In this document: positions 1,132 through 15,962 of the stretch, piece after piece
Position numbering within the stretch: the first letter of the stretch is position 1
How the letters are laid out: each line of letters starts with the position of its first letter
IMG/VR virus record: IMGVR_UViG_3300025897_000119
Coordinates: 1 to 20,232 of that record
Source: a virus
Reading direction: 5' to 3' (one strand)
Length of the DNA stretch: 20,232 nt
Notes under the pieces: model-generated
Databases searched by the model: none
The model's input: the letters and a program-made list of their open reading frames with translations, nothing else
Told to the model about the DNA's origin: nothing
Translations under genes and position numbers: made by a program

Positions 1132-3165
1132 ATGAGTGACTTATTTGAACCAGATCCCCTTATGATGGAAGAATCCATTGAAAGCTGGGTTATAACCAAA
1201 TGTGAAGATTGGCGTGACAACTACCAGTCTAACTACGAAGAACGCTTTGATGAGTACTACAGACTCTGGAGAGGAATCTGGGACCCAGCAGACTCAGAAC
1301 GTAAGTCAGAGAGAAGTCGTATTATTTCTCCTGCGCTTCAACAAGCTGTTGAGTCAAACGTAGCAGAGCTAGAGGAAGCTACCTTTGGTCGAGGCAAGTG
1401 GTTCGACGTGTCCGACAACGTGGGTGACTCAGAGCGTCAAGACGTGATGTTCCTGAGAAACAAGTTGACAGAAGACTTCGAGGACTGTAAGGTCCGTAAA
1501 GCAGTAGCAGAGTGTCTAATCAACGCTGCTGTCTACGGTACTGCTATGGGTGAGATTATCATCGAAGAAATGAAGGAAATGGCTCCTGCAACTCAGCCCA
1601 TCATGGGTGGTGACTTACAGGCAGTTGGAGTCAACATTACAGAAAGAGTCAAAGTAAAACTTAAGCCTGTACTCCCTCAGAACTTCTTAATTGACCCTGT
1701 GGCTACCAGTGTTGAAGACGCTTTAGGAGTAGCAGTAGATGAGTTCGTAAGTCTACATCAGGTTGAGCTTTTGCAAGAACAGGGTGTTTACCGTGATGTT
1801 TACGTAGGTCCTGCTGCTACTGACTCAGAATTGGAACCAGACCAGCTTTACTCTGTGTACAACGACGACAAAGTTCGTCTCACTAAGTACTACGGTTTAG
1901 TCCCTAGAGAGCTTCTTGAGTCTGCTATGGCTGACGAAAACGAAGAAGAAGAAGAAATAGTAGAAGTGACTGAAGACTCAGAGTCAAAACGAGAGTCAAG
2001 GTACGTAGAGGCAGTTGTAGTAATTGCCAATGGTGGCATCTTGTTGAAAGCTGAGGCTAACCCTTACATGATGCAGGACAGACCCATTGTTGCTTTCCCT
2101 TGGGACGTAGTACCCGGAAGGTTCTGGGGTCGAGGCGTGTGTGAAAAAGGTTACAACTCTCAGAAGGCTTTGGACGCTGAGTTACGAGCTAGGATTGACG
2201 CTCTAAGCCTCACGATTCATCCTATGCTGGCTGTGGACGCTACTAGGCTACCACGTGGGGCTAAACCAGAAGTACGTCCCGGTAAAATGATTTTAACAAA
2301 CGGAGATCCACGTGAAATTTTACAGCCGTTTAACTTTGGACAAGTTAGTCAAATTACCTTTGCTCAGGCGTCTGCTCTACAGCAGATGGTACAACAGGCT
2401 ACTGGTGCGGTTGACTCTGCTGGAATCGCGGGTTCAGTTAACGGAGAAGCTACGGCTGCTGGTATTAGTATGTCTCTTGGCGCTATTATTAAACGCCATA
2501 AGCGCACACTCATTAACTTCCAGCAGTCTTTTTTGATCCCTTTTGTAAAGAAAGCAGCCTATCGTTACATGCAGTTTGATCCTGAGAACTACCCTGTTGC
2601 TGACTACAAGTTTAACGCGAGTAGTACTCTGGGTATCATTGCTAGAGAGTACGAAGTGACTCAGCTTGTACAACTGCTACAAACTATGGAAAAAGGCTCT
2701 CCTCTGTACAACACACTGATCCAGTCTATCATTGACAACATGAACTTGTCTAACCGAGAAGAACTTGGTGCAGCTCTTCAGAAGGCTATGGAGCCTAACC
2801 CAGAAGCACAGCAAATGGCTCAGGCAGCACAAATGGCACAGGTTGAGTTCCAGAAGTCACAGACTGCAGCTTTGGCTAGTCAGGCTGCTGAGTCTCAGTC
2901 AAGAGCACAGAAAATGGCTATGGAAACACAGCTTATGCCTTCGGAGCTTGAGATTGACCGTATCAAAGCAGTCACCACAAACATACGCAAAGGAACAGAA
3001 GACGACAAAGAGTTTGAGCGTAGACTTAAAGTTGCAGACATGCTCCTTAAGGAAAGACAGCTTGAGATGCAAAAGAGCAGCCAATCAGCCAAAGAAATTA
3101 AGGAGAAGGAGTCGTCTGAACTTGAGCAACAACTCATGTCACGGTTGACCTCTGATGGACGTTAG
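1132..3165 (+). CDS. Portal protein, P22-like
   Basis: Portal protein: forms the dodecameric ring at one capsid vertex through which DNA enters and leaves and to which the tail attaches. The 677 residues and overall pattern fit the large P22-like portals: an N-terminal part rich in W, Y and R (DEYYRLWRGIWDP), a middle with PVLPQNFLIDPVA and VVPGRFWGRGV, a helical stretch GISMSLGAIIKRHKRTLI, and a long Gln/Ala/Glu-rich helical C-terminus (about 560-677) that would correspond to the barrel extending into the head. An acidic loop (about 268-283, ENEEEEEIVEVTEDSES) interrupts the middle. The start ATG follows AGGGAACC. The 3' end overlaps the collagen-like gene by 11 bp. The call rests on position after terminase plus length and pattern; the P22-like subtype is from memory of the family. 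Confidence 0.88.
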   Translation: MSDLFEPDPLMMEESIESWVITKCEDWRDNYQSNYEERFDEYYRLWRGIWDPADSERKSERSRIISPALQQAVESNVAELEEATFGRGKWFDVSDNVGDSERQDVMFLRNKLTEDFEDCKVRKAVAECLINAAVYGTAMGEIIIEEMKEMAPATQPIMGGDLQAVGVNITERVKVKLKPVLPQNFLIDPVATSVEDALGVAVDEFVSLHQVELLQEQGVYRDVYVGPAATDSELEPDQLYSVYNDDKVRLTKYYGLVPRELLESAMADENEEEEEIVEVTEDSESKRESRYVEAVVVIANGGILLKAEANPYMMQDRPIVAFPWDVVPGRFWGRGVCEKGYNSQKALDAELRARIDALSLTIHPMLAVDATRLPRGAKPEVRPGKMILTNGDPREILQPFNFGQVSQITFAQASALQQMVQQATGAVDSAGIAGSVNGEATAAGISMSLGAIIKRHKRTLINFQQSFLIPFVKKAAYRYMQFDPENYPVADYKFNASSTLGIIAREYEVTQLVQLLQTMEKGSPLYNTLIQSIIDNMNLSNREELGAALQKAMEPNPEAQQMAQAAQMAQVEFQKSQTAALASQAAESQSRAQKMAMETQLMPSELEIDRIKAVTTNIRKGTEDDKEFERRLKVADMLLKERQLEMQKSSQSAKEIKEKESSELEQQLMSRLTSDGR

Positions 3166-3859
3166 AGTACTACTCCTCGCTCTTGACGACAAGTTTAGCG
3201 GCCTCATGAAAAAACTTGAGGACCGTGTAAGCAAAGTCAAAGCCATGAAAGGCGACACTGGCCCTGCTGGTGTTGCTGGCCCTAAAGGTGACGTAGGCCC
3301 TAAAGGGGACACTGGACCTGAAGGAAAGCAGGGCAAAGACGGCAAGGACGGTAAAGACGGGAAGGACGGAGAAGAAGGCAAAGAAGGAGTAGGGGTACAA
3401 GACGCCTCAGTGGACTTTGACGGCCATTTGGTCCTTACTTTGACTAACGGTGAAGAGGTAGACGCAGGGGCCGTGAAGGAGCTTAACGAAGCTCAGGCAC
3501 CCAATGTCTACAACATCTCTATGGGTAGTATGGCTAGTCGTGCTGACCTTAAGAACGCTACGGCTAAGATTATCACGAGTAACCACACCACAGGCGGCTC
3601 TGAGATCCTAAAGGTTACTTCTGGTGTCGTGGTCCACTTAAGAGAGCACCCGCAGAACCGAGAGACCGTTATCATCAATTGTCGTACTGATGACAGGATT
3701 GACATCGTAGGTGAGATTAACATTGTCAACATGTCTTACTACGACATAGCCCAGTACAACGTAGATGAATTTGGACTTGGTAGTATTATTGTAGAACAAG
3801 ACGACACCACGATACACCTAGTGTACATCCAAGAATTTAAAGAGTGGTTGGCAATATAA
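3155..3859 (+). CDS. Collagen-like fibre protein with unknown C-terminal domain
   Basis: A 234-residue protein with four parts. Residues 1-30 are a short charged helix suited to trimerisation. Residues 33-80 are an unbroken Gly-X-Y tract with glycine at every third position (16 glycines), ending in four KDG units. Residues 81-107 form a beta-type segment (DFDGHLVLTLTNGEEVDAG) like those that follow collagen tracts in other phage fibres. Residues 118-234 are a C-terminal domain that I do not recognise. That domain is repeated as a separate protein by the next gene. Collagen tracts in phages form rod-like homotrimers, so a virion-surface fibre or head decoration is likely; its place between portal and scaffold genes favours the head, but this is inference. 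The start overlaps the portal gene by 11 bp and the stop runs into the next ATG (TAATG). Confidence 0.85.
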   Translation: MDVRVLLLALDDKFSGLMKKLEDRVSKVKAMKGDTGPAGVAGPKGDVGPKGDTGPEGKQGKDGKDGKDGKDGEEGKEGVGVQDASVDFDGHLVLTLTNGEEVDAGAVKELNEAQAPNVYNISMGSMASRADLKNATAKIITSNHTTGGSEILKVTSGVVVHLREHPQNRETVIINCRTDDRIDIVGEINIVNMSYYDIAQYNVDEFGLGSIIVEQDDTTIHLVYIQEFKEWLAI

Positions 3860-4200
3860 TGAGCTATGTACCTCAATCAAGAGCAGACCTAGCTACTGCT
3901 ACTCCTTATACCTTAACTTCAGACCACACTACGTCTGGAACAGAGATTCTTAGGTGTGCTGCAGACGTAGACATTATTTTAAATCCAGCCCCTAAAGACA
4001 GAGAAACAGTCGTCATGTACTTAGCTACGGCTAATACGGTAAACATTACTGGAGACATTAGGATATATAGTGCTGCTCTGTACAACATAGCCCAATTTAA
4101 CATCGATGAGTTTGGGGGATCAACCTTAACTTTTAACACACAACACGCCACAGCACATCTTATGTACGTAAGAGACTTTGAGGAGTGGCTTGCAATTTAA
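3859..4200 (+). CDS. Free paralogue of the collagen protein's C-terminal domain
   Basis: A 113-residue protein of unknown function. Residues 7-113 align without a gap to residues 128-234 of the preceding collagen-like protein; by hand count 47 of 107 positions are identical (about 44%). Shared blocks are SRADL, HTT-G-EIL, RETV, the (Y)-(N/D)-IAQ-(F/Y)-N-(I/V)-DEFG motif and the terminal EWLAI. I chose the ATG at 3859 because it forms a TAATG junction with the upstream stop; an in-frame GTG at 3844 would add only five residues. The pair looks like a local duplication in which one copy carries a collagen stalk and one does not. It may co-assemble with, or substitute for, the tip of the collagen fibre. 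Confidence 0.82.
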   Translation: MSYVPQSRADLATATPYTLTSDHTTSGTEILRCAADVDIILNPAPKDRETVVMYLATANTVNITGDIRIYSAALYNIAQFNIDEFGGSTLTFNTQHATAHLMYVRDFEEWLAI

Positions 4201-4217
4201 CAACCAAGAGGATAATC

Positions 4218-4400
4218 ATGCTAACGGACAAAGAACTAAGTGTTCTCCTAAAACACATTGACAAACAATTTGAAGACAAGTGGCAACAGATTAAAAACTT
4301 AGAACTAAAAGTAGAGGAGCTTTCCAATGGCAAAGGAGAAGGACCCAAGACTAACAAGGGCGGGAGTAAGCGGGTTCAACAAACCAAAGAGGACTCCTAG
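4218..4400 (+). CDS. Small helical protein of unknown function (60 aa)
   Basis: A 60-residue ORF with a good Shine-Dalgarno sequence (AAGAGGA, 4206-4212) before the ATG. The first 40 residues are strongly amphipathic and likely coiled coil (LTDKELSVLLKHIDKQFEDK, then KNLELKVEEL); the tail is a charged Gly/Lys/Asn-rich stretch. Its last 74 bp overlap the following gene in another frame, and the segment encoding VEEL contains that gene's Shine-Dalgarno. I do not recognise the family. A real gene is supported by the ribosome binding site and position in a tightly packed operon. Confidence 0.6.
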   Translation: MLTDKELSVLLKHIDKQFEDKWQQIKNLELKVEELSNGKGEGPKTNKGGSKRVQQTKEDS

Positions 4401-6228: not shown

Positions 6229-7212
6229 ATGGCTACTGCTACATATCCCGGTGCAGGGGGCAACACTGCAAAGACAGAAGCGGCTACTTTTATTCCAGAA
6301 ATCTGGAGTGACGAGATCATCGCTGCTTACCAAAAAAACCTGAAAATGGCCCCTCTTGTTAAAAAGATTAGCATGAATGGCAAGAAAGGTGACAAACTTC
6401 ACATTCCTAAGCCCGTCCGTGGTGACGCAAATGCTAAGGCTGCCGATACTGCAGTTACTATCATTGCAAACACTGAAGGCGAACTGACTGTTGACATCGA
6501 TCGTCACTTTGAGTACTCACGTCTCATCGAAGACATCGTTGAAGTCCAAGCTTTAAACAGCCTCCGTCAGTTTTACACTGAAGACGCTGGTTACGCTTTG
6601 GCTACTAAGATCGACGCTGATCTCCACTCTTGTGGTACTGGTTTCGGCAACGGTGGTGCAGTTGTGTTCTCTGGTTCAGTAGCTCCTACTGACTATCAGC
6701 ACACTGGCTGTTTCTTCAACGACGCCGGTACGACGACTCAGTACACTGACGACACTCTTGTTGCTGGTGATGACTTCACTGATGCTTTCTTCCGTGACAT
6801 GATTCAGAAGTTGGACGACAACAATGTACCGATGGAAAATCGTGTACTTGTTATTCCTCCTGCTACTCGAAATGCTATCATGGGGATTGACCGTTACGTG
6901 TCTTCTGACTTCGTAGGCGGTCGTGGTGTTGAGTCTGGCTTAATCGGTAACTTGTACGGAGTAGACGTATATGTCTCTGCTAACTGTGCAACTATCGAAG
7001 CTGCTGGTGATAACACTGCTTCCTCTGTAGACACTCGTGCTGCTATGCTCTTCCATCGAGACGCTATTGTTCTCGCAGAGCAGTTGTCAGTACGTTCACA
7101 AACCCAGTACAAGCAGGAATACTTGTCAACTCTGTTCACGGCTGACTGCCTGTACGGTGTTGAAGTATACCGTCCTGAAGCTGGTTTCGTTCTTGCAGTT
7201 CCTTCTGCCTAA
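6229..7212 (+). CDS. Major capsid protein
   Basis: Major coat protein, 327 residues, presumably HK97-fold. Typical features are the N-terminal EAATFIPEIWSDEIIAAYQK, the conserved GKKGDKLHIPKPVRGDANAK, a DRHFEYSRLIEDIVEVQ helix followed by YTEDAGYALATKID, and a C-terminal LFTADCLYGVEVYRPEAGF. It has the best Shine-Dalgarno in the window (AAAAGGAG, 6215-6222) and is directly followed by an intrinsic terminator, both consistent with high expression. Codon use (GCT, GGT, GAC, AAC) looks more biased than in its neighbours, as for an abundant protein. There is no N-terminal protease-cleaved arm that I can identify; assembly probably uses the separate scaffold. Confidence 0.93.
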   Translation: MATATYPGAGGNTAKTEAATFIPEIWSDEIIAAYQKNLKMAPLVKKISMNGKKGDKLHIPKPVRGDANAKAADTAVTIIANTEGELTVDIDRHFEYSRLIEDIVEVQALNSLRQFYTEDAGYALATKIDADLHSCGTGFGNGGAVVFSGSVAPTDYQHTGCFFNDAGTTTQYTDDTLVAGDDFTDAFFRDMIQKLDDNNVPMENRVLVIPPATRNAIMGIDRYVSSDFVGGRGVESGLIGNLYGVDVYVSANCATIEAAGDNTASSVDTRAAMLFHRDAIVLAEQLSVRSQTQYKQEYLSTLFTADCLYGVEVYRPEAGFVLAVPSA

Positions 7213-7303: not shown

Positions 7304-9553
7304 ATGAGTAATTACACCAAAACCGTTGACTTTGCCGCAAAGGATACTTTACCTTCAGGTGACAGCGGCAAAATTATTAAAGGAACTGAGTTTGAAACTG
7401 AGTTCGACAACATTTCAACAGCAATTGCAACCAAAGCAGACTCTGCAGCTCCCACGTTTACTGGGACTTCAGTATTTACAAACTTAGACATTAATGGTAC
7501 TGTACAAGCAGACGGAGCAGTAACAGTAGGTGTAGACGACACGGGTTACGACGTTAAATTCTTTGGTGCTACCGCAGGTAAAAGCCTATTGTGGGACGAA
7601 AGTGCTGATACCTTAATTGTCACAGGTACTACTACTTTAGTTGGTACTGCTAATTTAGACGCCGTAGACGTTGACGGCGACATGACGTTCGGAGATAACA
7701 ACAAAGCCATCTTCGGCGCTGGCAGCGACCTACAGATTTATCATACGGGTACTTACAGCCTAATTGCGGACACTTCTGGTACTGGCCCATTGCGTGTTGT
7801 AACTAACACGTTTCAATTGAACAATGCCGCAGATACGCAAAACATGATTAATGCGGCTGAAGGCGGCGCTGTTAATTTATACCACGCAGGTAACGCCAAA
7901 CTAGCCACCACAGCCACAGGCATTGATGTCACGGGTGACATTGTACTGGGGGATACTAACCCCACTATCACAATGAATGACAGTTCTGTAACCAATCTTC
8001 AACATTTAATTACTAGCTCTAGTGACAGGCTAATAATTGCTGCTGATAATAATGATGTATCCGCTGGATCAAAAATAGAATTTTATGTTGATGGCACTAA
8101 ATATTCAGAGGTAACCCCCACAGGCATTGATGTCACGGGTACGGTCACGGCGGATGGGTTGACTGTTGATGGCAATGCTCGCATTGAGGAAATAGGCGCA
8201 ATAGCTAAACTGACGCTAGAGCGCGGCGGTTCAGCCAACGCCGCCGATAGTGCGGCAGTGGATTTGCTAGAAACCAATGCTGGCTCAGAAGGCGCTAATT
8301 TTGGTGATGCGGCGACAAACGGTTTCAGACTAAAGCTTGATGGAAGCGCCAACGACTTTTTAATTCAGTCGGGTGCTTCTGGAACAGTAAATACAAGGTT
8401 TGGTATTGATAGAGACTCTGGAGACATCAGCTTCTACAATGGCGCGGCTGCACAAGGCTTGTTCTGGGATTCTTCGGCATCGGCGCTTGGGCTTGGTACG
8501 ACGAGTCCTAACAATCGTATTGATGCCGTAGAAGCTCAAGGTACTGTGGCAAACGTATTAGCAAATGGGACTTATGTTGCTAAATTTACAGGAAATACGA
8601 CATACACGACAGGAGCCTCACAGGGAATTTTAATTGGCGGGGTAGACGGAAGTTTAAGAGGTGTCGCATTAGTCGCAGAGGCACAAAGCGCACTTAACGA
8701 TCATGATTTTATTATTGCAGTTTCAGGAACCTCCGCAACTCCAACAGAACGCGTGCGCGTTGCCGGCGCGAACCTACTGGTGGGTCAGACGACAAATACA
8801 ACAACAGGTACAGGTGTTGGCTTAGTTCCAGACGGTACATCGCACATGTATTCTGCTGGCACTGATGCTTTAATGCTTGGTCGTGGTGTGTCGGATGGAG
8901 ACATTCTGAGCTTCAATCGTTCTGGCACACCCGTGGGTGCTATTGGTACTATCTTTGATGATTTATACATTGGAACTGGAGACACTAATATACGATTTGA
9001 CGCTAGTAATGACGCTATTACGCCGAGAGGGTCTGGTGGTTCTGCAAGGCCTGACGCTGTTGACTTAGGTAGTTCATCTGTTCGCTTCAAAGACCTCCAC
9101 CTATCAGGCGGTGTCGTCTTTGGAGCCACAGGCGGCGCTGTATCAAGCAAAACGCTGGATGACTATGAGGAGGGGACTTGGACTCCTGCTTACACAGGTA
9201 CGACAGGTGGAGCTGTAACTTATGGAACTCAAACAGGATCGTACACCAAAGTAGGCAATTTAGTTACAGTTGTAGGGGAACTCAGAGCAAAAAGAAACAC
9301 CTTAAGCGGTAATGTTGAAATTACAGGCTTACCTTTTACAAACTCAGGAAACGGTGCAGGCTTATCTGTTAATTTTGCTTCAAGTTTTGCCACAGACATG
9401 CCAAATCTAACGGGGTACACGACTAGCACGAAAATAGCATTACGCAAAAACGCAACAAATAGTGCAAGCGGTACTCCCGTGGTGAATACAGATTTGGCTG
9501 ATGCTGCAACTACTGAAAACTATTTGTACTTTTCAGTGACATACCTAACATAA
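7304..9553 (+). CDS. Tail fibre / receptor-binding protein
   Basis: A 749-residue fibre. The N-terminus (KTVDFAAKDTLPSGDSGKII, GTEFETEFDNI, then PTFTG) resembles the virion-attachment end of podovirus and marine phage fibres. The shaft has repeated beta-type segments: FGAGSDLQIYH-G (about 145-155), two TGIDVTG units, NARIEEIG and GDISFYNG. The end has DDYEEGTWTPA (619-629) followed by GSYTKVGNLVTV, a C-terminal beta-sandwich module I recall from many phage fibres. Host binding is the expected role, with trimers on the tail. Shine-Dalgarno AGAGGA is at 7292-7297. Base composition varies along the gene: about 8140-8340 and 8740-8775 are rich in GCG/GCC codons, while about 7980-8110 is AT-rich, which suggests mosaic assembly from modules. 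No C-terminal chaperone domain is recognised. Confidence 0.85.
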   Translation: MSNYTKTVDFAAKDTLPSGDSGKIIKGTEFETEFDNISTAIATKADSAAPTFTGTSVFTNLDINGTVQADGAVTVGVDDTGYDVKFFGATAGKSLLWDESADTLIVTGTTTLVGTANLDAVDVDGDMTFGDNNKAIFGAGSDLQIYHTGTYSLIADTSGTGPLRVVTNTFQLNNAADTQNMINAAEGGAVNLYHAGNAKLATTATGIDVTGDIVLGDTNPTITMNDSSVTNLQHLITSSSDRLIIAADNNDVSAGSKIEFYVDGTKYSEVTPTGIDVTGTVTADGLTVDGNARIEEIGAIAKLTLERGGSANAADSAAVDLLETNAGSEGANFGDAATNGFRLKLDGSANDFLIQSGASGTVNTRFGIDRDSGDISFYNGAAAQGLFWDSSASALGLGTTSPNNRIDAVEAQGTVANVLANGTYVAKFTGNTTYTTGASQGILIGGVDGSLRGVALVAEAQSALNDHDFIIAVSGTSATPTERVRVAGANLLVGQTTNTTTGTGVGLVPDGTSHMYSAGTDALMLGRGVSDGDILSFNRSGTPVGAIGTIFDDLYIGTGDTNIRFDASNDAITPRGSGGSARPDAVDLGSSSVRFKDLHLSGGVVFGATGGAVSSKTLDDYEEGTWTPAYTGTTGGAVTYGTQTGSYTKVGNLVTVVGELRAKRNTLSGNVEITGLPFTNSGNGAGLSVNFASSFATDMPNLTGYTTSTKIALRKNATNSASGTPVVNTDLADAATTENYLYFSVTYLT
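7914..8140 (+). repeat. 23-bp exact direct repeat in the tail fibre gene
   Basis: The same 23 bases (starting CCACAGGCATTG and ending TCACGGGT) occur at 7914-7936 and 8118-8140, 204 bp apart start to start, a multiple of three. Both encode the TGIDVTG shaft unit. In-frame recombination between them could remove or add 68 residues of fibre without breaking the frame. Confidence 0.85.
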
Positions 9554-9598: not shown

Positions 9599-9847
9599 AT
9601 GGCTTTAGAAAAAGTAGTATCACAAGATAAGATAGAAATCGTAGGCGAGTTCAAAGCAGTACAAGTACGAACCTGCACCAAAGTCCTAGAAGACGGCGTC
9701 GAGCTATCCTCTGGCTACCATCGTCACGTCATCACGGCTGGTCAGGACTACAGCGGCGAATCAGCAGAAGTCCAAGCGATTTGTGCAGCGGTTCACACGG
9801 CTGAAGTCATCGCAGCATTTGAAGCATCACAAGGAGACGCACCATGA
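9599..9847 (+). CDS. Small conserved phage protein (82 aa), unknown function
   Basis: An 82-residue protein (MALEKVVSQDKIEIVGEFKA, then VQVRTCTKVLEDGVELS, a YHRHVITAGQDYSGE segment and VQAICAAVHTAEVIAAFEA). The KIE-VG-+KAVQVRT---EDG-E-S---HRHV pattern recurs in small proteins encoded next to tail fibres in marine phages, as far as I recall. No enzyme motif is seen; the fold is probably a small beta domain with a C-terminal helix. CAGGAG precedes the ATG. It overlaps the next gene by 4 bp (ATGA). Confidence 0.78.
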   Translation: MALEKVVSQDKIEIVGEFKAVQVRTCTKVLEDGVELSSGYHRHVITAGQDYSGESAEVQAICAAVHTAEVIAAFEASQGDAP

Positions 9848-10161
9848 GCGCAACATTTAACTGGGTAATCTCTACCCTTGAGCGTGACTTACAACCAGAA
9901 GACATGGACGGTGCGGTAATCGTGGCCCATTGGCGCTGCAATGCGTCTCAGGACGACTACTCTGCTACGTCTTACGGCACTTGTGGCTTCAGCCCTGACC
10001 CGTCAAGTCCTTCATACGTTGCTTACGACAGCATCACAGAGGACATGGCTTTAGGCTGGTGCTTTGACTCAGGTGTTGACAAAGACGCCGTAGAAGCAGC
10101 CCTACAGGCTAACATTGACGCCCAAGTCAGCCCAACTCAAGCATCTGGAGTTCCTTGGTAA
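9844..10161 (+). CDS. Small conserved phage protein (105 aa), DUF7936-like
   Basis: A 105-residue protein with an N-terminal FNWVISTLERDL, then VIVAHWRCNASQDD, a Gly/Ser/Pro/Tyr-rich middle, YDSITEDMALGWCF, VEAALQANIDAQ and a C-terminal SGVPW. The pattern of a start W-x3-LE, a central V-HWR, LTE-x3-GW and EA-LQ-x-IDAQ ending in G-PW is one I recall from many marine phages, probably the family now named DUF7936 (name from memory, unchecked). Function is unknown; genes of this type sit beside fibre and lysis genes. AAGGAGA lies 8 bp before the ATG. It is joined to the next gene by TAATG. Confidence 0.75.
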   Translation: MSATFNWVISTLERDLQPEDMDGAVIVAHWRCNASQDDYSATSYGTCGFSPDPSSPSYVAYDSITEDMALGWCFDSGVDKDAVEAALQANIDAQVSPTQASGVPW

Positions 10162-10485: not shown

Positions 10486-10849
10486 TAAGCTCATAGGTCC
10501 CATTACGGGACTGCTGGACAAGTTCATTGAGGACAAAGATCAAAAGAGTTCTTTGGCGCACGAAATTGCAACAATGTCACAGAAACATGCGCAAGAAATT
10601 GCGTTGGCTCAGATTTCAGTCAATACTCAGGAAGCTAAAGGCAACTGGTTTCAGTCCTCTTGGCGTCCTGCTACTGCGTGGGTTTGTGTCTGTGGATTCA
10701 TGGTAAACTTCCTAATCAGCCCTTTGGCTGCTCCCTTTGGTATTATTGTCCCTCAAGCAGACACTTCAGTTATGCTCCCTGTCCTCATGGGTATGTTGGG
10801 TTTAGGCACGATGCGTAGCTTTGAAAAGACTAAGGGAGTGTCTAAGTAA
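10478..10849 (+). CDS. Holin of the 3-TM GTA-type family
   Basis: A 123-residue protein. The N-terminal half is an amphipathic helix (LDKFIEDKDQ, then AHEIATMSQKHAQEIALAQI). The second half has the pattern of the three-TM holins first described for gene-transfer-agent release: WFQSSWRPATAWVCVCGFMV, a second hydrophobic segment around ISPLAAPFG, and LPVLMGMLGLGTMRSFEKTK with G-V-SK at the end. The WRP--AWVC and G--R--EK-KGV signatures fit well. It would form the membrane lesion that lets lysis proceed. ATG at 10478 gives the 8-bp overlap with the previous gene; an in-frame upstream start would add only seven residues. It is joined to the next gene by TAATG. No endolysin is present nearby. Confidence 0.82.
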   Translation: MIDKLIGPITGLLDKFIEDKDQKSSLAHEIATMSQKHAQEIALAQISVNTQEAKGNWFQSSWRPATAWVCVCGFMVNFLISPLAAPFGIIVPQADTSVMLPVLMGMLGLGTMRSFEKTKGVSK

Positions 10850-13512
10850 TGGGTAAAAGGTCACCAATAAAACAAACAGTTAAAACTGGTCAGGACATTA
10901 CTGATAGTTTGTTGGATGCGGAATACGCTAAAACTGCTCAAGCATGGTGGGACGTTAGAAGGCCCGATGTTTTCTTTGGTGTTCAGGGTGAGCGTACAGA
11001 CGAACAAAAAGCGCGAGTAAAACAGTTTAGACAAGAGTGGGGCAACGTAAGAGGCGCTGCTGCTGTTAACGGTTTAGTAGACGGTACGTACACAGCGGAT
11101 CAACTAAGTCAAAACTGGGGTGCTGAGAACTTAGCCTCAGTCATTAGAGCTGAAACTTTTGAAGTAGGTGAGTTTAACGAAGGTGATAACTTTGGGTCTT
11201 ATTTACAGTCAGAGTTTGATAATGTATCTAGCTTTATTAACCCAAGTAATGAAGGAGTTAGAGGTACTTTAGGAACTATAGACACTGCTTTAGCACAAGG
11301 CTCAGGCGGACCTAAAGGGGCTGAAAGAGGCGTTACAGTTACTGCTGGTGACTTAGCTAGTTCTTCTTATATGGATGCTGTTCGCTCTGCTGCTGAAACA
11401 GCTGGTGTTGACATATACGTTGACGGCCCTGCGGGTGGTCAATACGAACTAAACGTAGGCCAGTACGATGATGTACCTTTAGGGTCTTATCATACTGTAC
11501 GTGAAGCCGACTCACCTTTAGAAATGATCTTTGAAGCTGTACTTAAAGCTGTTGTTGTTAATGTTTTAACAGCAGGTTTAGGCGCAGAATTAGCATCATT
11601 AGGTGAAGCTTTAAGCAGTTCAGGTGAACTCGCTACGATGGCGAGCATGTCTAACGGTGCTAATGTAGCTTATGAAACTACTGAGTGGGCTAGAAATGTA
11701 GGAGATATTTTAACAGGCATAGGACAAACACTAGAAGCTGGTGGTGCTATATCCTCTGGTACTGCCGCTGCTGCTGGTGGTGGCATACCTCCTTATGTTA
11801 TGACCCTTATAAAAAATACTGCTTCTAATGAAGGTGTTATTTCTGATGTAATAGAAGTAGTTGACGTTATTAATACTGCTGCTTCGGCAGTTGAATCAGA
11901 AGAAATACCAGAAGCCGTCATTCAAGAAGAAGAAGAAGAAGTTTCCCTAGAAGCAGACCCAGACTTAATGGGAACTGCAACTATTGAGGAAACCATAGGT
12001 GACGAAGACTTTACTACTGCTCCTTTACCTACTCCAGAAATTATAGTTGACGAAGTACCTATAGACGAAATACCTATAGAAATAACAGAGCCTGAAGTAG
12101 AGTTTGTAGACCCCAGTACGGACAGTGGTGGAGGCGGTGGTGGCGGTGAGGAAAGTGGAGGCGATAGTTCTGCTGGAGCTGGCACTACTGCTACTACTGG
12201 GGGAACTGAGGCTGCTGGAGGTACTGTCGGTTCTGGAGGTGCTTCAGGTTCCAGTGAAGGAAGCACTGGTGACGCCCAAAGCACTGACGCTTCTGGAGCA
12301 GGAACTGAATCGGTTGAGTCTGAAAGTGGAGTTATAGTCGGTTCAAACGACGGTGTTCCCTATACTAGAAACCCAGTTATAGCTGACAACGGCCCTTGGG
12401 TTTATCAAGGGGGAGGCGTGTGGATTATACCTACCGACGAAGAACAAGTTTTACGAGAAGTTTTAGTAGCGGAAGATTATGGTGGTACTTTGGCTGTACA
12501 GCTTGCAGAGTTAGCAGCGGGTGAGCCTGACCCTAACTTACAAGCAAAGTACCTTGAAGAAGCTAAAAGGTATATAGGAGATTCTGAAAACTTACCTCCT
12601 AATTTTGAAGGAATGACTGCGGAAGAGCTTGAAGAGTTCTTAAAAACACCAACTGGTGAAGTTATTGACGAAACTCCAGAACAGCCCGTTTTTAACGATC
12701 CTAATTATGATCCTAATAAAGCAGAAATTTTTAAAGAAGGAGACAGAGCTGATATAGTCCAGAGTTCTGTAGGTACTGGAAATACTACTACTTCGGAGAC
12801 TGAAGAACAGATTGAGGCTAAGGCAGCAGAAGAACCAGAAAACAATTTTTCAACTGATATTTTAGAAGTTCTTATTGAGGAAGTAACTAACAACAACTCT
12901 ACAGCCCCTGCCGATATAGACACTACAGGCGGTGCTTCAACCAGTACTACTGAAACTACAGGTACTACAGGTACAACAGGCACTACAGGCACTACAGGCA
13001 CTACAGGCACTACAGGCACTACAGGCACTACAGAAGTAGTAGTAGTAGACCCTAATCAATCAACTGTAGATTCCGATGGTGACGCTGGTGACGGTGGTAA
13101 TGGAGGTAACGCAGGAGGTGCTGTAGACGGCGGTGGCGCTGGTACTGACGGAGACGGTGTAGACACAGGCGACGGCGGGGAAGCTGGTGGTGGGGACAGT
13201 ACCGGAGTAGCAGACGGCAGTGGTGCAGGTGCTGGAGAAGGCTCAGGGACTGGGGAAGGAACAGGTACTGGAGAAGGAACTGGAGAAGGCTCAGGGACTG
13301 GAGAAGGCACTGGAGAAGGAGAAGGCTCAGGGACTGGCGGCGGATCAGGTGGTATGCTTTCTGGTGACAGTGGCAGTAGTATTGGGCAGGGATACATGGG
13401 AGGCTTCAACTACAACTTACCTCAGTTTGTGCCTGTAGCTTATCAGCCTAAAGATTATGACGTTGAGCTTAATCGAATCATTAATCAAAGTTTGTTTAAA
13501 GGAATGATCTAA
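10849..13512 (+). CDS. Large low-complexity Gly/Thr/Glu-rich protein of unknown function (887 aa)
   Basis: I do not recognise this protein. Residues 1-220 look folded (AEYAKTAQAWWDVRRPDVFF near the start). Residues about 225-320 are hydrophobic and small-residue rich (LKAVVVNVLTAGLGAELASL; GTAAAAGGGIPPYVM). Residues about 355-420 are very acidic with a run of six Glu. From about 427 on come Gly/Ser/Thr tracts, a short ordered island (PWVYQGGGVWIIPTDEEQVL), then GTT repeats (705-728), a Gly/Asp-rich tract and GEGSGTGEG repeats (796-830). The last 40 residues look ordered and probably conserved (FNYNLPQFVPVAYQPKDYDV, then ELNRIINQSLFKGMI). It starts and ends on TAATG overlaps, between the holin and the tail adaptor, so a virion role (ejection or tail protein) is likely but inferred. 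There is no signal peptide. Confidence 0.6.
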   Translation: MGKRSPIKQTVKTGQDITDSLLDAEYAKTAQAWWDVRRPDVFFGVQGERTDEQKARVKQFRQEWGNVRGAAAVNGLVDGTYTADQLSQNWGAENLASVIRAETFEVGEFNEGDNFGSYLQSEFDNVSSFINPSNEGVRGTLGTIDTALAQGSGGPKGAERGVTVTAGDLASSSYMDAVRSAAETAGVDIYVDGPAGGQYELNVGQYDDVPLGSYHTVREADSPLEMIFEAVLKAVVVNVLTAGLGAELASLGEALSSSGELATMASMSNGANVAYETTEWARNVGDILTGIGQTLEAGGAISSGTAAAAGGGIPPYVMTLIKNTASNEGVISDVIEVVDVINTAASAVESEEIPEAVIQEEEEEVSLEADPDLMGTATIEETIGDEDFTTAPLPTPEIIVDEVPIDEIPIEITEPEVEFVDPSTDSGGGGGGGEESGGDSSAGAGTTATTGGTEAAGGTVGSGGASGSSEGSTGDAQSTDASGAGTESVESESGVIVGSNDGVPYTRNPVIADNGPWVYQGGGVWIIPTDEEQVLREVLVAEDYGGTLAVQLAELAAGEPDPNLQAKYLEEAKRYIGDSENLPPNFEGMTAEELEEFLKTPTGEVIDETPEQPVFNDPNYDPNKAEIFKEGDRADIVQSSVGTGNTTTSETEEQIEAKAAEEPENNFSTDILEVLIEEVTNNNSTAPADIDTTGGASTSTTETTGTTGTTGTTGTTGTTGTTGTTGTTEVVVVDPNQSTVDSDGDAGDGGNGGNAGGAVDGGGAGTDGDGVDTGDGGEAGGGDSTGVADGSGAGAGEGSGTGEGTGTGEGTGEGSGTGEGTGEGEGSGTGGGSGGMLSGDSGSSIGQGYMGGFNYNLPQFVPVAYQPKDYDVELNRIINQSLFKGMI
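12961..13032 (+). repeat. Tandem 9-bp repeat (GGCACTACA), 8 units
   Basis: Eight 9-bp units encode Gly-Thr-Thr eight times. The first two are variants (GGTACTACA, GGTACAACA) and the last six (12979-13032) are identical. Slippage would change length in steps of three residues without a frameshift. Confidence 0.95.
13234..13337 (+). repeat. Imperfect Gly-Glu/Ser/Thr repeat array with three exact 20-bp copies
   Basis: The 20-mer GGAGAAGGCTCAGGGACTGG occurs three times (13234-13253, 13282-13301, 13318-13337), with shorter GGAGAAGG(A/C)ACTGG units between. It encodes GEGSGTG and GEGTG units, a flexible linker-like segment just ahead of the ordered C-terminus of the 887-residue protein. Confidence 0.92.
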
Positions 13513-14210: not shown

Positions 14211-15962
14211 ATGGCACAAGAAATAAAAAGTATTACTCTTGTAGCGCCTGCTTTCAAAGGTATTAATACCGAAGATTCGCCTTTAGCTCAAGACCCTTCT
14301 TTTGCGGAAAGCGCGGACAACGCCATTATCGACAAAAGAGGGCGTATTGCTGCACGTAAAGGACTCAGTGTTTTAACTACGGATAAAACTGAGTTAGGCA
14401 CTGGAAACTTACGAGCAATAAAGGAGTTTAGGGACAACTTAGGTAACACCAAAATATTCTCAGTGGGTAACAACAAAATACTCAGTGGCACAACTGTGTT
14501 GGCTGATGAAACACCGGGTAGCTACACGATCACTTCAGATAACTGGAAGATAGTCAACTTTAATGACAATGTTTATTTCTTCCAGAGAGGCTATGAACCT
14601 TTAGTTTATAATAATACTGGAGGCGCTGTAGTTAAACTTAGTACAGTAGCAGGAGCAGCAGGTGTTGTTGCTGCAATGTACGGCAATGAAGTCCTAGCAG
14701 CCTACGGTAGACTCTGGACTGCAGACTTTACTACTGATAAATCTACTGTGTACTGGTCTGACCTTTTGATTGGCCATGACTGGACAGGAGGAACATCTGG
14801 TTCCATAAATTTATCAAAAGTATGGCCTGATGGTTTTGACGAAATTGTAGCACTGGCTGCACATAATAATCTTTTGATTATCTTTGGAAAACACAGTATC
14901 GTAGTGTACGAAGGTGCTGACTCTCCTGCTACTATGAGATTAGTAGATACTATTGCAGGAGTAGGTTGCGTAGACAGAGACACTGTGCAGTACACAGGAA
15001 CAGACGTTTTATTTTTATCTCAAACTGGTCTCAGAAGCTTCGGTAGAACTGTACAAGAAAAATCAATGCCTATGAGCAGTCTGTCGGGGACAATTACTAC
15101 GGACATTATTAGACTGATTAGAGAAACCGGAGAAATCTTCAGGTCCGTGTACCACCCAGAAGAAAGCTTCTACTTAATAACTTTTACTAATCAAGCAATA
15201 ACCTTTTGTTTCGACGTTAGAGGTACTTTGGAAAACGGGGCTTATCGAGTTACTCGCTGGCCCGGCACAGGCTTTACTTGTTATGGACGCAAGGACAACG
15301 GAGACTTGCTTATAGGTAGTCGTTTTGGAATTGGGCAGTACACAGGGTACAAAGACAACAGTCTTCCTTACCGCTTTAAGTACTTTAGTCCTGAGCTGAC
15401 TTTCGGTGACGCTTCTAAACTTAAGTTTTTAAAAAGACTCAGACCAACACTGGTAGGAGGCAGCGGTGCAGACGCTATTTTTACGTGGTCCTATGACTTT
15501 GGAACTTTGTTTAGCTCTGCTGAAGTAGGGATTAGAAGTCAAGGAAGGTCTGACTTTAATTTATCTGAGTACCCTGTGTACTCTGAGTTGTCTGGTTATG
15601 GCATTTCGTCTACAGGTGACGTTGACATAGGAGAAGTTGTAGTTGTAAACAAGTTCTTAGGGGACTTTACTTCTGCTCCTACTATCGGCTCTGGGGGAGG
15701 TGCTTTGTTAGAAGGAGATAGCTACTTCGACACTGCTGCTGATATTTTTTATGTGTACATAAGTAGTGCTTTTGTCGATTTAGACACTTTAGTTCCTGCC
15801 AGTGTCGGAGAGTTTTCTGACGGAGAACTTGTTTCTAGGAACGCCATAAACGCTAACGGCAGTGGTTCAACTATTACCATTGGCTTAGAAGCAGACATAA
15901 ATGGGCATGAGTTGTCTATACAGGACATCAACGTACTTGCATTAATAGGTAAAACATTATGA
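14211..15962 (+). CDS. Tail hub / DNA stabilisation-type protein (P22 gp10-like)
   Basis: A 583-residue, beta-rich protein likely to be the second short-tail component that closes the portal channel and holds packaged DNA. The N-terminus has FKGINTEDSPLAQDPSFAES and AIIDKRGRIAARKGLSVLT, a pattern (a GINT-DSP start followed by D--I---G-+--R-G) I associate with gp10-like and tail-tube proteins of podoviruses. The middle has propeller-like repeats (GRLWTADFTTDKSTVYWSDL; HNNLLIIFGKHSIVVYEGAD; VLFLSQTGLRSFGR; SFYLITFTNQAITFCFDVRG). The C-terminal quarter is a separate beta segment. The ATG at 14211 has only a weak Shine-Dalgarno (AAGG). The stop overlaps a mini-ORF (ATGA). Exact homology needs a profile search. 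Confidence 0.68.
   Translation: MAQEIKSITLVAPAFKGINTEDSPLAQDPSFAESADNAIIDKRGRIAARKGLSVLTTDKTELGTGNLRAIKEFRDNLGNTKIFSVGNNKILSGTTVLADETPGSYTITSDNWKIVNFNDNVYFFQRGYEPLVYNNTGGAVVKLSTVAGAAGVVAAMYGNEVLAAYGRLWTADFTTDKSTVYWSDLLIGHDWTGGTSGSINLSKVWPDGFDEIVALAAHNNLLIIFGKHSIVVYEGADSPATMRLVDTIAGVGCVDRDTVQYTGTDVLFLSQTGLRSFGRTVQEKSMPMSSLSGTITTDIIRLIRETGEIFRSVYHPEESFYLITFTNQAITFCFDVRGTLENGAYRVTRWPGTGFTCYGRKDNGDLLIGSRFGIGQYTGYKDNSLPYRFKYFSPELTFGDASKLKFLKRLRPTLVGGSGADAIFTWSYDFGTLFSSAEVGIRSQGRSDFNLSEYPVYSELSGYGISSTGDVDIGEVVVVNKFLGDFTSAPTIGSGGGALLEGDSYFDTAADIFYVYISSAFVDLDTLVPASVGEFSDGELVSRNAINANGSGSTITIGLEADINGHELSIQDINVLALIGKTL

Follow-up and report, generated by a model that had tools for sequence, protein, structure and literature searches.

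A Collagen-Stalked Domain and Its Unstalked Twin Form an Optional, Exchangeable Gene Pair Behind the Portal Gene of Uncultured Marine Phages

The Same Domain Ends a Collagen Stalk and Makes Up the Next Protein

Two adjacent genes in the IMG/VR record IMGVR_UViG_3300025897_000119 raise the question of what a phage gains from a domain that it encodes twice, once at the tip of a collagen-like protein and once as a free protein. The window, i.e., the whole stretch of 20,232 nucleotides that was analyzed, covers that half of a podovirus-like genome which contains the structural genes, with the gene order terminase, portal, stalk/free pair, 60-aa gene, PHROG 7595 gene, scaffold-like protein, major capsid protein, and tail/internal proteins, whereby the pair sits in the head module between the portal and the scaffold/major capsid protein. 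Cultured relatives are distant, with the major capsid protein being ~32% identical to that of Anabaena phage A-4L and the portal ~25% identical to those of HMO-2011-type phages. Searches of cultured phages yielded no relatives of the free protein and collagen matches only for the stalk protein. One pattern-based scan of cellular genome contigs gave no relatives, whereby an empty scan of this type is weak evidence, and a photosynthesis gene (PF00124), which would have served as a host clue, had no match in nine contigs. The phages carrying the pair are uncultured marine phages. Elsewhere in the window, the major capsid protein (6229-7209) is a mosaic with 92–94% identity to the carriers L172 and L021 and 75–77% to other carriers. 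It is directly followed by a 749-aa fiber-like protein without a Pfam match (7304-9553), and further genes encode a DUF7936 member (9844-10161, E 3.7e-27) and an 887-aa protein (10849-13512) that lacks a PHROG match and contains long low-complexity stretches rich in Gly and Thr.

All features of the locus are encoded on the plus strand. The stalk gene (3155..3859, 234 aa) overlaps the portal stop with its start and, by one base, the ATG of the free gene with its stop. Its product begins with a segment that is amphipathic by eye and is proposed as an anchor (residues 1–32, 3155..3250; no PHROG match), followed by a collagen-like region of 16 Gly-X-Y triplets (3251..3394; Pfam PF01391, E 5.3e-08), a feature shared with collagen-like head decorations of the SPP1 gp12 kind; relatives have 15–17 triplets. 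Next comes a GVGV...DAG cap with three predicted strands and a low-confidence linker (3386..3535; model m462a0a12b557, strands at model residues 4–29, pLDDT <50 at 32–49). The stalked domain copy forms the tip (3536..3856). The free gene (3859..4200, 113 aa) encodes the domain with only six extra N-terminal residues. For both copies the assignment rests on alignment, model, and fold match.

Residues 128–234 of the stalked and 7–113 of the free protein align without a gap over 107 positions, of which 47 are identical and 73 similar (BLASTP, E 2e-33). This agrees with the preliminary description, which had placed the similarity at 3536-4197, a range that spans both domain copies, and whose hand count of 47/107 was exact. 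With the stalk domain as query, a six-frame search of the whole 20,232-base record detected two copies only (E 1.7e-70 and 2.3e-28), which together with the BLASTP result rules out a chance similarity. That one domain occurs once on a collagen stalk and once free, in genes lying side by side, is thus confirmed by the alignment as well as by the relatives described below.

Both Copies Are Predicted to Have an XD1-Like Fold

The domain had been described as unknown, and this holds for sequence families, since neither Pfam, PHROG, nor PDB sequence searches gave a significant match; it does not hold for the fold, which is predicted to be the known XD1 beta-sandwich. In a profile search against PDB sequences the best match had an E value of 0.92 and fell on unrelated proteins, and a StcE_b-sandwich match (E 0.13) was obtained for one member only. 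The tip also matched Pfam Trm56, but at E 0.045 this was below the cut-off and was regarded as chance. AlphaFold2 monomer models of both copies were built from alignments generated in this analysis and had a mean pLDDT of ~80. With VIA-align, Z scores of 9.4–9.9 were obtained for XD1 of CBA120 TSP4 (chain residues 71–175), a baseplate protein of Klebsiella phage KP1, and residues 179–289 of the Pa223 capsid spike, and Z scores of 8.7 and 7.8 for T4 gp9 and gp10, respectively. The match within TSP4 was limited to XD1. StcE and CpaA (4dny, 6o38) were also among the fold matches. Foldseek gave the Pa223 capsid spike (9ny6) as the best match for both models (E 1.5e-4 and 3.3e-4), and a library of predicted viral structures held many further fold matches in phage proteins, some of which are small free proteins. 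XD1 of TSP4 (residues 80–178) has been described as a trimerically packed beta-sandwich of nine strands, with gp9, gp10, StcE, and CpaA named as its relatives (PMC8825819). Both copies are predicted to have this nine-stranded mixed beta-sandwich fold, which is known from phage baseplates and a capsid spike, whereby Z scores of 8–10 at <16% identity demonstrate that the fold is shared, which does not extend to the function.

The Pair Is an Optional Block at an Overlapping Gene Junction

With the portal as query, >600 related stretches were obtained, of which the best 80 were kept together with the window, yielding 81 loci, a few of them from the same contig. Within this set, 13 loci carry the pair, 56 do not but have the next genes in place, and 12 were unscorable. 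The preliminary description had overlooked that the pair is optional, as the block is missing from most of these close relatives. In the 13 carriers, the ATG of the 60-aa gene is immediately preceded by a block of ~1.15 kb that contains a new portal tail, the stalk, and the free protein. Comparison of the window with the empty site of L206 showed DNA similarity up to 3059 (85% over 3000) and again from 4218 (86% over 3043), whereby L206 has 17 bases in place of the 1158-bp block of the window (3060..4217: portal 3' end, stalk gene, free gene, and a short spacer). Likewise, a block of 1137 bp in L166 corresponds to none or one base in L151. The block starts with the carrier-type C-terminal tail of the portal (3060..3165), which is helical and Glu/Lys/Gln-rich and replaces the Pro/Gly-rich tail of the non-carriers; the former tail type is present in 13/13 carriers and the latter in 56/56 non-carriers among the best 80 and the window. 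The right border, as defined by DNA comparison with non-carriers, is the ATG of the coiled-coil-like 60-aa gene (4218..4400). In non-carriers (L150, L151, L153, and others) the Pro/Gly-rich portal tail is overprinted in a second frame on the first ~100–130 nt of this gene. Ten non-carrier contigs of 17–58 kb contained no domain copy elsewhere, in a search that had no positive control of its own; the same domain query found both copies in 14/14 carrier contigs. The new finding here is that the pair belongs to a cassette which is both optional and exchangeable and which occupies a junction of overlapping genes. In the non-carrier L217 (record G019 14642-14989), collagen repeats were seen in a 1587-aa open frame, which shows that this phage group has collagen in a further protein as well.

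Stalked and Free Forms Are Anciently Paired but Partly Independent

Scans of IMG/VR yielded ~70 loci, and 71 stalk-bearing loci were examined, several of which are overlapping stretches of one contig and some the window itself. The free copy directly follows the stalk in 69 of the 71, and the remaining two are truncated within the stalk by the contig end. Never more than one free gene follows a stalk gene in these loci, and each of 14 larger contigs (12–36 kb) has exactly two domain copies. The stalk/free junction reads TAATGAG, i.e., a TAATG start-stop overlap, in 25/25 distinct stalk genes. A scan with the cap region for stalks with other tips gave stalks of this lineage only.

In a maximum-likelihood tree of 60 domains, all stalked copies are split from all free copies at 100/100, which places one old duplication before the radiation of these phages. 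A recent duplication or gene conversion is ruled out by these separate clades together with the saturated synonymous sites between them. Purifying selection is strong on both forms, with a median dN/dS of 0.06 for the stalk tip and 0.05 for the free form; at values of about 0.05, decaying passenger genes are ruled out. Across pairs, stalked and free distances correlate only partly (r 0.74). The stalked tips of L071 and L073 are 98% identical, their free forms 55%, whereas L048/L071 and L051/L037 share 80% of the tip but 96% of the free form. Since in certain pairs one copy is shared while the other differs, the two forms are exchanged separately at times. From carrier to carrier, divergence is much greater in the free form than in the stalked tip, the latter being more conserved than the portal in many pairs. 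Should one of the two forms interact with a variable partner, this would be the free form. Free proteins with insertions of up to ~20 residues, on long branches, were observed in L053 (4309-4731) and L073 (3838-4251).

The Block Was Probably Gained and Moves Between Backbones

The old reading frame downstream of the block in L166 still encodes the former portal tail (NSSPETNRSTPRPQVAPFGGTGTQGRGPMQ compared to NSSPETSRSTPRPQVAPFGGVGTQGRGPMQ in L150), although it is now cut off from the portal; in the window this frame is decayed and has stops. The leftover frame of L166 supports a gain of the block by an ancestor without it, whereby the same DNA is also held by the overlapping gene. L166 is closer to L151 in the right flank (94%) than in the left one (84%), and thus a single insertion explains the data no better than a recombination joint at the right border. 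In the portal tree of the best 80 relatives and the window, the carriers are scattered and four changes are needed, at least three of which are forced by well-supported branches. The window is 87, 93, and 91% identical to the non-carrier L153 in portal, terminase, and PHROG 7595 gene, but 84, 90, and 71% to the carrier L144, with which its stalk tip shares 92%. A backbone nearer to L153 combined with a tip this close to L144 shows that the block moves between backbones. As the tail type tracks the block perfectly across scattered carriers, it is conceivable that portal tail, collagen fiber, and free tip are a matched three-part device that moves together, whereby uptake of the fiber would need the exchange of the portal C-terminus. 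We consider this quite improbable; a shared recombination border also explains the association.

Possible Role of the Pair

The best explanation, to which we give about an even chance, is an optional virion-surface module consisting of a homotrimeric collagen fiber and an unstalked twin of its tip, which would decorate the head, aid attachment, and spread as a block. In such a module the product of the first gene would form a homotrimeric fiber that is anchored by its short N-terminal helix and continues as a collagen rod, whose 15–17 triplets correspond to ~13–14 nm at the usual rise of collagen. A small beta cap would hold the three chains in register, and the tip would be a trimer of XD1 fold. 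The second gene, whose start overlaps the stop of the first, would supply the tip domain without a stalk; this product, likewise probably trimeric, would be another component of the surface and sit on either the capsid or the fiber tip. The module would most likely decorate the head and aid attachment to cells or particles, would not be essential, and would spread between backbones as a block. The data establish the duplication with its age and constraint, the fixed pairing, and the presence or absence of the block at one site, while trimerization, anchor, head location, and adhesion role are what we infer here. Capsid decoration is plausible because the genes belong to the head module, the protein has a collagen stalk like SPP1 gp12, and the predicted fold matches that of a capsid spike. 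A trimeric tip is supported by the trimeric packing of TSP4 XD1 modules (PMC8825819), and dispensability by the empty site in 56 of the best 80 relatives and the ten non-carrier contigs free of the domain. SPP1 gp12 is a collagen-like trimeric capsid protein that is dispensable (PMC6813328, PMC7602432), and together with phi29 gp8.5 and Hoc it belongs to the dispensable head proteins that aid attachment (PMC7602432, PMC6813328). Against a head fiber it can be said that the same fold occurs in tail baseplates and tailspikes and hence does not fix the location, and that the carrier block also alters the portal tail. Nor is the conservation of the stalked tips beyond that of the portal in many pairs what would be expected of a fast-evolving receptor binder.

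It might instead be that the collagen protein is a tail or portal-vertex fiber, with XD1 as an adaptor holding another trimeric fiber, as in T4 gp10 and CBA120 TSP4. Most fold matches are indeed tail baseplate or tailspike proteins, the block begins inside the portal gene, and most PHROG families matched by the collagen part are annotated as tail fiber. These matches, however, rest on the collagen repeats only, the genes lie in the head module, and a long fiber-like gene is present elsewhere (7304-9553); moreover, XD1 acts as a spacer while XD2/XD3 bind partners (PMC8825819). Such an appendage is unlikely in our view, but deserves to be taken seriously, since most solved relatives of the fold are tail proteins.

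The free protein, in turn, might be an assembly partner of the stalked one, forming mixed trimers or a tip cap and being made in step via translational coupling. The fixed adjacency, the TAATG overlap in every pair, and the predicted fold common to both domains are consistent with this, yet the free form is exchanged independently (L071/L073 above all) and diverges far more between carriers than the tip does. This argues against an obligate matched hetero-interface, whereas a loose one is still compatible, and we regard an assembly partner as distinctly unlikely; the mixed trimers proposed in the preliminary description find no support in view of the separate clades and the independent exchange. 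A role of the free form as an independent second adhesin or as a glycan-binding decoration is very improbable: the glycan-binding domains of StcE and CpaA (4dny, 6o38) have this fold as well and the free form varies more than the stalked one, but no glycan-binding residues were identified and a shared fold shows no function. A mobile optional head fiber with an unstalked companion is the most economical reading.

Comparison With Known Systems

Dispensable capsid fibers are already known, and their purpose is rarely clear. Here, closely related portals provide naturally matched phages with and without the fiber, so that its effect can be tested by comparing carriers with non-carriers or by deletion. 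The locus is also a case in which a pair of overlapping genes has taken up a putative virion-surface module, whereby the tail of the upstream protein was exchanged, and in which, according to the models, a tail-baseplate fold appears to serve both at the tip of a stalk and as a protein of its own. XD1 of T4 gp9/gp10 and CBA120 TSP4 is alike in its beta-sandwich of about nine strands (Z 7.8–9.9 over 81–95 aligned residues) at 7–15% identity; there it is an internal module of a tail protein, whereas the present domain either stands alone or forms the C-terminus behind a collagen stalk. The Pa223 capsid spike has the same fold in its distal domain (179–289), the only one compared (Z 9.3–9.4, 8–9% identity). 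SPP1 gp12, whose gene also adjoins the capsid genes, is alike in being collagen-like and non-essential. It differs in its size of 6.6 kDa and in having no such tip, and no paralogue is reported in PMC6813328 or PMC7602432. The phi29 gp8.5 head fiber and T4 Hoc resemble the proposed module as dispensable head decorations linked to attachment (PMC7602432), but have other folds, no collagen, and no paired free twin.
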